Source of the DNA: Nitrospinota bacterium
Lineage (GTDB): Bacteria > 2-12-FULL-45-22 > JACOWJ01
Length of the DNA stretch: 7,861 nucleotides
Direction of reading: 5' to 3'
NCBI GenBank assembly: GCA_016176845.1
Contig: JACOWJ010000047.1
Location: 1 to 7,861 of the forward strand
A program made the translations under genes and the position numbers. Positions 2,737 to 6,274 of the stretch are shown one piece after another; positions within the stretch are counted from its first letter, which is position 1, and every line of letters begins with the position of its first letter. The notes below the pieces were generated by a model. That model saw only the letters and a program-made list of their open reading frames with translations. It was not told the DNA's origin and ran no database searches.

Positions 2737-3724
2737 AAAAAGATCTGCGAAGGTCATCGGTTGGACCCTGATCATCCTCTCGCTGGTAGCGGGAGGGGCT
2801 TGGGGATGGTCCCGGCTCCTCTCACCTCGTTATTCTGGATGGCAGGTTAGACTGAAGAGCATTTCCTTGGGAAAGTTTAAACTAAACCGTCATGGCCAAG
2901 CAGAGTTGGCCGCCCCCGAGAATGAAAATGGACTTCGGAAAGACTCAGGCATTTTCACGTTAAAACAGGTGGTGGTGAAAGGGACCCGGAGACTGACCCC
3001 AGAGCAGATCTTGCAGTGGGCGGCCCTGGAGGATCGTTCTACCCCGGGGGCTCCCGCTCGTCGGGTCAGGGAGCTCGACCTCTGGCAGGTGGATTTGAAG
3101 GAGATGGCTTCCCGCCTCAAGAGCCATCCATGGATCGAGGCGGTCGCCATCGAGAGGAACCCGCCCGATCGATTGACTCTCACCATCCGCGAAAGGGTCG
3201 CGTGGGCCCGCCTGGAAGGGCCTTCCTCTTACCTGGTGAGCGGAGAGGGAATGGTCCTTCAAAGGGTTTCTGAAGGGGATGCTGGCCCTCCTCTCCCCCG
3301 GCTGGTCGGATGGGGCGGGCACCCGTATCTGCCAGGGGAAAGGATCGGAAAGGCCGAGATCCTTAGGGCTTTGGAGATCTTAAAAGAGGCCGGGCATTGT
3401 CCGTGGGCCCTCCATCAGGGGATCCTTCAAGTGGACCTCTCTCAAGGAGAGAGGCCTGTAATCACGCTGGGCAACGGGAGAAAGCTCCGCTTTGGCCCAA
3501 CCGATATTCGAGGAAGCTGGGCCCGCCTGCGGGCAGTCTCTTCCAGGATGGAGGGAGCTCCAGGCATGATAGACCTCTCCTTTAAAGATCTGGTGGTGGT
3601 TGGATCTTTAGCTTCGCTTGCTTCAAGGGGGGTGGTGGAAGGTGGTCAGAGAGAATCTCGTAGTAGGGTTGGATATCGGTACGACGAAGATCTGCGCCAT
3701 CATCGGAGAACTGAAAGGCGATGA
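2681..3724 (+). CDS. ftsQ: Cell division protein FtsQ (DivIB family), with unusual C-terminal extension
   Basis: FtsQ is a bitopic inner-membrane protein that joins FtsB/FtsL and links the Z-ring to septal peptidoglycan synthesis. Visible are a short basic cytoplasmic tail (about residues 1-24, many Lys/Arg) and one membrane segment (about 25-43, VIGWTLIILSLVAGGAWGW). A periplasmic POTRA domain follows (about 91-175, from FTLKQVVVKGTRRLTPEQI through HPWIEAVAIERNPPDRLTL), then the FtsQ beta domain (about 176-307, ending IDLSFKDLVVV). There is no in-frame ATG near the start. TTG 2681 (AAGG 6 nt upstream) and TTG 2699 (AAGGGGA 6 nt upstream) are about equally good; both overlap murB, by 56 or 38 nt. 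The family usually ends near the IDL..KD.VVV strand. Here 40 more Arg- and Ser-rich residues follow, and the frame runs 83 nt into ftsA. Confidence 0.92.
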   Translation: MSRGFGLKGRSKPCWKKGRKRSAKVIGWTLIILSLVAGGAWGWSRLLSPRYSGWQVRLKSISLGKFKLNRHGQAELAAPENENGLRKDSGIFTLKQVVVKGTRRLTPEQILQWAALEDRSTPGAPARRVRELDLWQVDLKEMASRLKSHPWIEAVAIERNPPDRLTLTIRERVAWARLEGPSSYLVSGEGMVLQRVSEGDAGPPLPRLVGWGGHPYLPGERIGKAEILRALEILKEAGHCPWALHQGILQVDLSQGERPVITLGNGRKLRFGPTDIRGSWARLRAVSSRMEGAPGMIDLSFKDLVVVGSLASLASRGVVEGGQRESRSRVGYRYDEDLRHHRRTERR

Positions 3725-4874
3725 CCAGGTGGAGATCATTGGGGTCGGGACCTGTCCTTGCGAAGGCCTGAAGAAAGGGGTTATCGTCGGTATCGAGAGC
3801 ACGGTCGAGGCGGTCAGGAATGCCATCCAAGAGGCGGAGCTGGTCGCGGGTGCAGAGGTCAGCTCGGTCTATGTGGGGATCGCAGGCAGCCATATCAATG
3901 GCGTGAACAGCCACGGCGTGGTCGCCATCAAGAACAAGGAGGTCCGGAGGACGGACATCGAACGGGTTCTCGATGCGGCCAAGGCGATGCCCATGCCCAT
4001 GGACCGGGAAGTGATCCACGTGCTGCCGCAGGAGTTCCTGGTGGACGACCAGGGCGGGATCAAAGAACCCATGGGGATCTCGGGCATTCGGTTAGAGGGC
4101 AAGGTCCATATCGTCACGGGCTCCATCACATCGGCCAACAACATCCGTAAATGCGTCCAGAAAGCCGACCTGGAGGTTGAGAATCTGGTATTAGAGCCCC
4201 TGGCCTCCAGCGAGGCCACCATCACAATGGATGAGAAGGAACTGGGGGTAGCCCTGGCCGACGTGGGAGGAGGAACCTCCGACATCCTGGTTTTTACCCA
4301 GGGAAGCGTGAAACACACGTCAGTGTTAGCGCTGGGAGGAAACAACATCACTCGGGACATCGCCATCGGGCTGCGCACTCCGATCAGCGAGGCCGAGCGG
4401 ATCAAGAAGCGCTACGGGTGCGCCTATGCCTCCATGATCGCTGAGGACGAGATGATCGAGGTGCCTAGCATCGGAGGACGGGATTCCAGGCGGCTCTCCC
4501 GCAAGGTCCTCAGCGAGATCGTGGAATCACGGGCCGAGGAGATCTTTCGGCGGGTAGACTTCGAGATCAAGAACAGCGGCTACAAGGATCTGTTAGCCTC
4601 TGGGGTCGTCATCACGGGGGGCAGCAGCATCATGGAAGGAATGACAGAGATCGCGGAGGAGATCCTGGAGCTGCCGGTACGCCGGGGATTGCCCCTGGGG
4701 ATCAAAGGGCTGATCGACATGGTCAACAGCCCTTTGTATGCCACGGCTGTGGGGCTGGTCCTGTATGGGATGAAGAGGGAAGCCCCGGGCAGCCTGAACA
4801 GCAACCACGGCTTTTTTCAGGGCGTTCAGAAGGTCATCAAAGGATTCGGGAAAGGGTTCGGGAAGTTCTTTTAG
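3642..4874 (+). CDS. ftsA: Cell division protein FtsA
   Basis: FtsA is the actin-like ATPase that tethers FtsZ to the inner membrane and recruits later divisome proteins. With GTG 3642 as start it has 410 residues, typical of the family, and begins MVRENLVVGLDIGTTK. The actin-fold motifs are phosphate-1 GLDIGTTK (9-16), phosphate-2 DVGGGTSD (207-214) and the adenosine motif VVITGGSSIMEG (322-333). The FtsA-specific 1C domain sits roughly at residues 78-157. The C-terminus ends in an amphipathic, Phe- and Lys-rich helix (about 391-410, ending GFGKGFGKFF) that fits the membrane-targeting sequence. The start was chosen because a G-rich ribosome binding region (GGTGG, 3631-3635) lies 6 nt upstream. 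TTG 3618 would add eight residues unlike FtsA. The first 83 nt overlap the end of ftsQ in another frame, which suggests translational coupling. Confidence 0.97.
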   Translation: MVRENLVVGLDIGTTKICAIIGELKGDDQVEIIGVGTCPCEGLKKGVIVGIESTVEAVRNAIQEAELVAGAEVSSVYVGIAGSHINGVNSHGVVAIKNKEVRRTDIERVLDAAKAMPMPMDREVIHVLPQEFLVDDQGGIKEPMGISGIRLEGKVHIVTGSITSANNIRKCVQKADLEVENLVLEPLASSEATITMDEKELGVALADVGGGTSDILVFTQGSVKHTSVLALGGNNITRDIAIGLRTPISEAERIKKRYGCAYASMIAEDEMIEVPSIGGRDSRRLSRKVLSEIVESRAEEIFRRVDFEIKNSGYKDLLASGVVITGGSSIMEGMTEIAEEILELPVRRGLPLGIKGLIDMVNSPLYATAVGLVLYGMKREAPGSLNSNHGFFQGVQKVIKGFGKGFGKFF

Positions 4875-4913: not shown

Positions 4914-6101
4914 ATGTTTGAACTCTCGGAAGAAAGCAACAGTACCGCCAAGATCAAGGTGGTCGGCGTAGGAGGTGGCGGAGGAAACGCCATCAATAAT
5001 ATGATTTCCTCAGGGTTGACCGAGATGGGTTTCATCGCCGTCAACACCGATGCTCAGGCCCTGACCTCCTCTCTCGCCCCGGTGAAACTGCAGATTGGAA
5101 GGACGGGATTGGGCGCAGGAGGCAACCCCGAATTCGGCAAGAAGGCCGCCATGGAGGATCTGGAAAAGATCAACGACGTCCTGGACGGGGCAGACATGGT
5201 CTTCGTGACGGCCGGCTTAGGGGGCGGCACTGGAACCGGCGGAGCCCCGGTGATCTCAGGCGTCGCCAGGCAGAAAGGGGTCCTGACCGTGGGGGTGGTA
5301 ACCAAGCCCTTTATCTTCGAGGGGAAGACCCGAGGGAAAATCGCCGATGACGGATGGAAAGAACTCAAGGAATGCGTGGATACCCTGATCACCATCCCCA
5401 ATCAGCGGTTGCTCAACGTCGTGGATCGCAAGACTCCCTTGCGGGATGCCTTCAAGATCGCCGATGACATCCTCACGCAGGCCGTTCAGGGCATCTCGGA
5501 CCTGATCACAGTCCCCGGACTGGTCAATCTCGATTTTGCCGATGTCAAGACGGTGATGTCCAATGGCGGCCTGGCCCTGATGGGGACCGCCACGGCCCAA
5601 GGAGAGAACCGGGCGATCGAGGCGGCCCAGAAGGCGATCTCCAGCCCCTTGCTGGAGGAGTCCTCCATCGAGGGGGCCATAGGCGTCCTCATCAACATCA
5701 CGGGTGGGCCCGACCTGACGCTATACGAGATCAACGAGGCGGTCTCCCTCATCCAGGAGAGCGTCCACGAGGAGGCTCAAATCTTTTTTGGCTCCGTCAT
5801 CAACGAGGAGATGGTGGACGAGGTACGGGTGACCGTGATCGCGACGGGCTTCGGCGCTCGCAAGAAGCTGACCGAAGAATCCTCGAAGAAGCATCGGGCC
5901 GCTCAGCAGAAAGCAGAGATGGAATCCCCTTATGGGCGTTTTACCGGCCCAGGCAAGAAGGCACCGGGCTCGCGGCCCAGGAACGGCTTCCCCAGTTACG
6001 ACGACAGCGAGGTGGATATTCCCGCCTACATGCGCAAAGACAAAGACAAAGACGACGGGGAGACGGATACTCCGGCCTTCATGCGGCGCAAAGCAGATTA
6101 A
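4914..6101 (+). CDS. ftsZ: Cell division protein FtsZ with a doubled C-terminal peptide
   Basis: FtsZ is the tubulin-like GTPase that polymerises into the Z-ring at midcell. The 395-residue protein shows [14 protein letters not shown] (17-30), NTDAQAL (44-50), the tubulin signature GGGTGTG (103-109) and the T7 synergy loop NLDFADVK (205-212, with Asp207 and Asp210). The C-terminal GTPase-activating half ends near VIATGF (308-313). A charged linker (about 316-365) follows. The tail holds two copies of the peptide that binds FtsA and other partners: [10 protein letters not shown] (366-375) and [10 protein letters not shown] (383-392), the second ending RRKAD at the stop. Most FtsZ proteins have one such peptide at the extreme C-terminus. 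Start: GGGAGGT (4897-4903) lies 10 nt before ATG 4914. The gene follows ftsA after a 39-bp gap, so co-transcription is likely. Confidence 0.98.
6009..6098 (+). repeat. Tandem duplication encoding two FtsZ C-terminal binding peptides
   Basis: Bases 6009-6047 and 6060-6098 encode 13-residue segments, [13 protein letters not shown] and [13 protein letters not shown], spaced 17 codons apart. Seven of 13 residues are identical, and Y/F and K/R are conservative. Codons are largely shared too (GAG, GAT, GCC and ATG at matching places), which points to an in-frame duplication and not chance similarity. A short run of alternating Lys and Asp residues (374-380) follows the first copy and runs into the acidic spacer. 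Confidence 0.8.
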
Positions 6102-6108
6102 ATAAAGG

Positions 6109-6167
6109 CCAGGGACGAGGGGTTAGGATCCGGCGTTTTTCCCTAATCCCTGGCCCATAGTCCCTAA
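6109..6167. repeat. Inverted heptamer arrays downstream of ftsZ, forming a hairpin
   Basis: Three + strand units (CCAGGGA, CGAGGGG, TTAGGAT; 6109-6129) face four units in the opposite orientation (TCCCTAA at 6140-6146 and 6161-6167, with TCCCTGG and CCCATAG between them). The period is 7 bases throughout. GGCCAGGGA (6107-6115) pairs perfectly with TCCCTGGCC (6147-6155), and TTAGG (6123-6127) can pair with CCTAA (6142-6146) inside it, leaving a 7-nt bulge. A T5 run (6136-6140) sits in the loop and not after the stem, so an intrinsic terminator is not supported. The four C-runs (6141-6164) give a G-quadruplex motif on the - strand. Confidence 0.7.
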
Positions 6168-6172
6168 TTACA

Positions 6173-6274
6173 ACTCCACGTAATAAAGTACCCCTTTACT
6201 GCAGAGGCACAGAGATTTTCCCAAGTTTTCCCTCTGTGTCTCTGCGGTTTATTGGATACTTTATTCTGTGGAGT
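6173..6274. repeat. 102-bp imperfect palindromic element (MITE-like) upstream of the radical SAM gene
   Basis: Terminal arms 6173-6190 (ACTCCACGTAATAAAGTA) and 6257-6274 match as an inverted repeat at 16 of 18 positions. After a poorly matched 10-bp stretch, the inner arms GCAGAGGCACAGAG (6201-6214) and 6232-6245 match at 13 of 14. The loop is about 17 nt. There is no open frame within it and no clear target-site duplication around it. The 'CTCTGTGTCTCTGCGG' core resembles, from memory, a repeat seen between genes in many bacterial genomes. It looks like a non-coding mobile or structural repeat. Its right end supplies the ribosome binding site of the next gene. Confidence 0.85.
6268..6273 (+). 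promoter_or_regulatory. Shine-Dalgarno site of the radical SAM gene, inside the palindrome arm
   Basis: GTGGAG lies 8 nt before ATG 6282 and is the only good ribosome binding site near this start. It is part of the right arm of the palindrome: ACTCCAC (6173-6179) is its perfect complement, so the RNA hairpin would cover it. Confidence 0.6.

Follow-up and report, generated by a model that had tools for sequence, protein, structure and literature searches.

The conserved C-terminal peptide of FtsZ (CTP, also CTC or 'PAFLR' motif) binds FtsA, ZipA, MinC, SepF, SlmA and ZapD. In the usual picture, FtsZ has a polymerising core that is joined through an unconserved linker to a single docking peptide. 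Reviews give it one conserved peptide, which follows a variable linker (PMC9939409), and work on CTP sequence logos defines a single PAFLR region (PMC8178401). The ftsZ gene in the window (the whole stretch of 7,861 nucleotides analysed here) encodes a tail with two such motifs. Here we ask whether both are genuine CTP-like motifs, how the second one arose and what it could contribute to cell division.

Gene context

All genes of the window are encoded on the forward strand in the order murC, murB, ftsQ, ftsA, ftsZ and a radical-SAM gene, so that ftsZ adjoins ftsA within a dcw-type cluster (murC, murB, ftsQ, ftsA, ftsZ; Table 1). The FtsZ matches the Pfam models Tubulin (147.7 bits) and FtsZ_C (119 bits) far over their curated cut-offs, and FtsZ structures in the PDB match it at E = 1.7e-113. 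The FtsA is an ordinary one that solved FtsA structures match at E = 1.9e-105; its C-terminal tail is Gly/Lys/Phe-rich and, judged from its sequence, probably amphipathic. Between ftsZ and the radical-SAM gene (6107-6274) there are three inverted-repeat pairs, the first of which could be a terminator.

Table 1. Coordinates of the division genes, the repeated units of the FtsZ tail and the adjacent inverted repeats in the window
Feature	Position	Strand	Description
ftsA	3645-4874	+	expected partner and membrane anchor of FtsZ; intact
ftsZ	4914-6101	+	395 aa; core approximately 1-313; disordered tail of 82 aa
Tandem unit 1	6000-6050	+	17 residues; holds the upstream CTP-like motif at 6009-6038
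Charged spacer DKDKDDG	6039-6059	+	DNA with a short AAAGAC repeat
Tandem unit 2	6051-6098	+	16 residues; true C-terminal CTP; motif at 6060-6089
Inverted-repeat pair 1	6107-6121/6141-6155		candidate terminator
Inverted-repeat pair 2	6173-6193/6254-6274		with pair 3, resembles a nested palindromic repeat element
Inverted-repeat pair 3	6198-6214/6232-6248		with pair 2, resembles a nested palindromic repeat element

Two CTP-like motifs in one FtsZ tail

The window FtsZ tail carries two CTP-like motifs, 17 residues apart and separated by a K/D-rich spacer, and the open reading frame bears out the initial annotation in this respect. The offset between the motifs is exactly 51 nt (17 codons). The units that contain them abut directly with a period of 17, and the similarity spans the whole unit, beyond the 10-residue motifs. 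At the DNA level the units are identical at 34/51 nt. Because the copies differ at 17/51 bases (33% divergence), an assembly artefact from collapsed or duplicated reads is not a credible source of the repeat. The spacer DNA also contains a 6-nt tandem repeat, AAAGAC (6036-6056), a possible slippage site.

To assess chance similarity, we compared every linker with 1000 shuffled versions of itself, using for the scores a profile built from terminal CTPs other than that of the window. The upstream motif of the window outscored all 1000 shuffles of its linker (P about 0.001), and a chance motif is ruled out by these shuffles together with reversed-motif and Arg-to-Asp/Glu controls. Its flanks score +11.6. 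Among terminal CTP scores the upstream copy lies at the 22nd percentile and the terminal copy at the 18th; both thus score as genuine terminal CTPs do, and neither looks decayed. The terminal copy fits the CTP consensus and lies no more than about 15 residues from the C-terminus, with an unusual Thr at -3, and the ending of its unit, RRKAD, matches the single CTP of the relatives L003 and L085. The upstream copy is closer to the profile of internal copies in other bacteria (score 22.8) than to the terminal profile (15.1).

Internal CTP-like motifs across bacteria

One large bacterial group commonly has a second, internal CTP-like motif, which also turns up here and there in other groups. We surveyed 208 FtsZ tails from many phyla, with a cut-off of P 0.005 in the linker shuffles for calling an internal motif, and detected a second CTP-like motif upstream of the C-terminus in 79 of them, where about one is expected from shuffled linkers. 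The assumption that the CTP normally occurs once, with which the initial annotation started, is therefore too narrow. A plain pattern count in three samples gives 41/71, 13/78 and 12/49 tails, with fewer than one expected in each, and the reversed and Arg-to-acid control motifs occur at chance level in the tail samples. Flank positions that were not used in picking the motifs also fit a CTP (mean +4.7 vs -14.7 for other linker prolines).

The internal motif is concentrated in the phylum of genome G024, where it occurs in 52/71 tails and 38/47 families; 18 of the 22 multi-member families are internally consistent. We infer that this phylum is Desulfobacterota-like because the FtsZ core of L190 is 93% identical to that of a named Geobacteraceae and the core of L203 is 83% identical to that of a named Desulfobacteraceae. 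By named group, the motif was identified in 10/11 tails of the Desulfobacterota group, 1/8 of Nitrospirota, 0/25 of Bacillota, 0/8 of Myxococcota and 0/6 of Magnetococcales, and in a sample spread over the whole domain it is present in 13/56 tails. The phyla of G041 and G059 contributed few genomes, and the relatives of G032 mostly duplicated the first sample. Presence of the motif tracks the FtsZ tree, on which it needs 28 changes, compared with 63 on average after shuffling.

The distance between the two motifs is also clustered: the median spacing is 33.5 residues, and 77% of the doubles fall within 29-38 residues vs 19% for random placement in the linker (n=78). Internal copies have a profile of their own: position +3 is mixed (Ile, Leu, Met, Gln or Arg), -1 accepts Arg, Glu or Lys, and the KQAD end is missing. 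A few tails depart from both the single and the double arrangement. L091 (G059) has three CTP-like motifs (LERPTFQRK, EIPAFKRK and the terminal LERPAFLRKQMD), L131 (G015) has an internal SLEIPAFQRR without a recognisable C-terminal CTP, and the two FtsZ genes of genome G011 (L112 and L117) both lack a recognisable CTP.

Origin of the second copy

The window's family is represented by one genome, and L003, from the same order, is the only other genome of its phylum. This sister and L085 each have one intact motif, and the upstream motif is absent from both. The initial annotation had held that single-copy relatives, with the double tail unique to one assembly, would speak against the finding. 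The first half of this does describe L003 and L085; the second fails, since the survey rules out that two motifs are unique to the window genome, and the two-motif architecture is no single-assembly quirk.

Within that architecture the window is an outlier. Its spacing of 17 residues is the shortest of the 78 doubles, outside the common 29-38 class, and its internal motif is not conserved in its nearest relatives. Its tail has 82 aa vs 63-68 in the three nearest relatives. The two units share 8/13 residues, a value equalled in only 2/66 other doubles. The shortest spacing, the single-motif relatives, the longer tail and the shared residues favour a tandem duplication in the window lineage. Thus, as read from the sequences, a unit of 17 codons was most likely duplicated in tandem and in frame, in an older event specific to this lineage. 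In-frame duplication had been suggested at the outset, and the exact abutment of the units with period 17 makes it the likeliest origin; its supposed recency, read from the codons, is unsupported, with a similarity at synonymous sites that falls short of significance (P 0.06 and 0.08 against codon-usage nulls) and the DNA as divergent as noted above.

Alternatively, the upstream motif could be the old internal CTP of the Desulfobacterota-like type, kept by descent in a linker that has since lost length, so that a spacing of about 33 residues became one of 17. The closer match of the upstream copy to the internal profile is in keeping with such descent, as are an internal motif at spacing 34 in L173 and a degenerate one, NLEIPTHVRH, at spacing 31 in L084, which is among the three nearest sequences. 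We nevertheless regard this route as unlikely: the motif is missing from L003 and L085, all 77 other doubles have a spacing of at least 26, the window tail is longer rather than shorter than those of its relatives, and the two units abut exactly.

Possible roles of a double tail

FtsA receives the CTP in a pocket of its subdomain 2B, and on the E. coli protein a single FtsZ CTP dwells for only about 90 ms (PMC9098913); with so short a dwell, rebinding could matter. We consider it about an even chance that the window encodes a bivalent FtsZ tail, in which two CTPs, the second from an old in-frame tandem duplication, each probably fit the FtsA pocket. Both motifs sit on one flexible charged tail, and each would probably enter the pocket. 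This would probably make the tail likelier to rebind FtsA before diffusing off, a benefit in avidity or rebinding, or let it hold FtsA and a second CTP-binding regulator simultaneously. The duplication would have given the window lineage an arrangement that is older elsewhere at a spacing of about 33 residues, above all in the Desulfobacterota-like phylum. At that spacing, bridging of two FtsA subunits of a filament is plausible. In the window, a chain-length estimate makes bridging of two neighbouring FtsA subunits marginal because only about 7 residues are free between the motifs. In E. coli, FtsZ exceeds FtsA about 5:1, a ratio cited in PMC4383033; extra sites may therefore stay empty, or serve rebinding or another partner. 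The lower conservation of the internal motif within families (0.68, vs 0.85 for the terminal motif and 0.54 for the rest of the linker) counts against a bivalent tether.

The two motifs might instead serve different partners, one of them FtsA and the other a second CTP-binding protein or a regulator (MinC, a Zap protein or the ClpX unfoldase). The separate profile of internal copies would suit such a division of labour, and in E. coli FtsZ two sites are recognised by ClpXP, of which the linker one lies some 30 residues before the C-terminus (PMC3983244). Both copies nevertheless share the core D-x-D/E-x-P-T/A-F/Y-x-R, and we think different partners improbable, if a serious contender. The Thr of the second copy, which the initial annotation took to indicate a different preference, is not diagnostic at -1: that position, just ahead of the Pro, is Thr in 12% of terminal CTPs, among them CTPs of Polyangiaceae and lactic acid bacteria whose tails have a single copy, and the Thr does not by itself show a new partner. 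A search of the window's own genome, recovered to 68%, gave no SepF; within that scope this argues against different partners and against SepF as the candidate second partner and, together with the intact adjoining FtsA, counts for an FtsA tether.

Quite unlikely, in our estimate, is that the second copy in the window adds nothing to a single CTP and is only a repeat that arose neutrally in a disordered, fast-evolving linker. Linkers vary freely, the two copies are separated by the AAAGAC repeat and one motif is enough for close relatives, but both copies still score as CTPs at a DNA divergence at which a neutral copy would be expected to have lost the motif, and double motifs recur across phyla.

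Extending the bivalent FtsA tether beyond the window is a more tentative step, to which we give slightly under even chances. Here, a second CTP about 33 residues from the first would be an undescribed, selected bivalent tether that is dominant in the Desulfobacterota-like phylum, present in many others and independently re-evolved in the window lineage by tandem duplication. Were a whole phylum to carry two docking peptides at a set distance from each other, models in which weak single contacts attach the Z-ring to the membrane would need a bivalent version, and the question of linker length would become testable.

Comparison with known systems

We found no report of a second CTP in an FtsZ tail in the literature, as covered by open-licence papers. 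Both window copies resemble the known FtsZ CTP in their D-x-P-A-F/Y-M-R core, and the last one is located at the C-terminus as usual; the difference lies in number, with one CTP per tail in reviews (PMC9939409) and two, 17 residues apart, in the window. The FtsZs with an internal CTP, from the Desulfobacterota-like phylum and others, are similar in having two CTP-like motifs per tail and a charged stretch after the internal copy. Their motifs lie 26-63 residues apart, in most cases 29-38, and are largely common to the members of a family, whereas the window has a spacing of 17 and a sister without the upstream motif. The dual ClpXP sites of E. coli FtsZ likewise place two recognition sites on one tail, one of them about 30 residues upstream of the end. 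Judged from its description (PMC3983244), the linker site in E. coli acts as a signal for degradation and is not a second CTP, which sets it apart from the double motif of the window.
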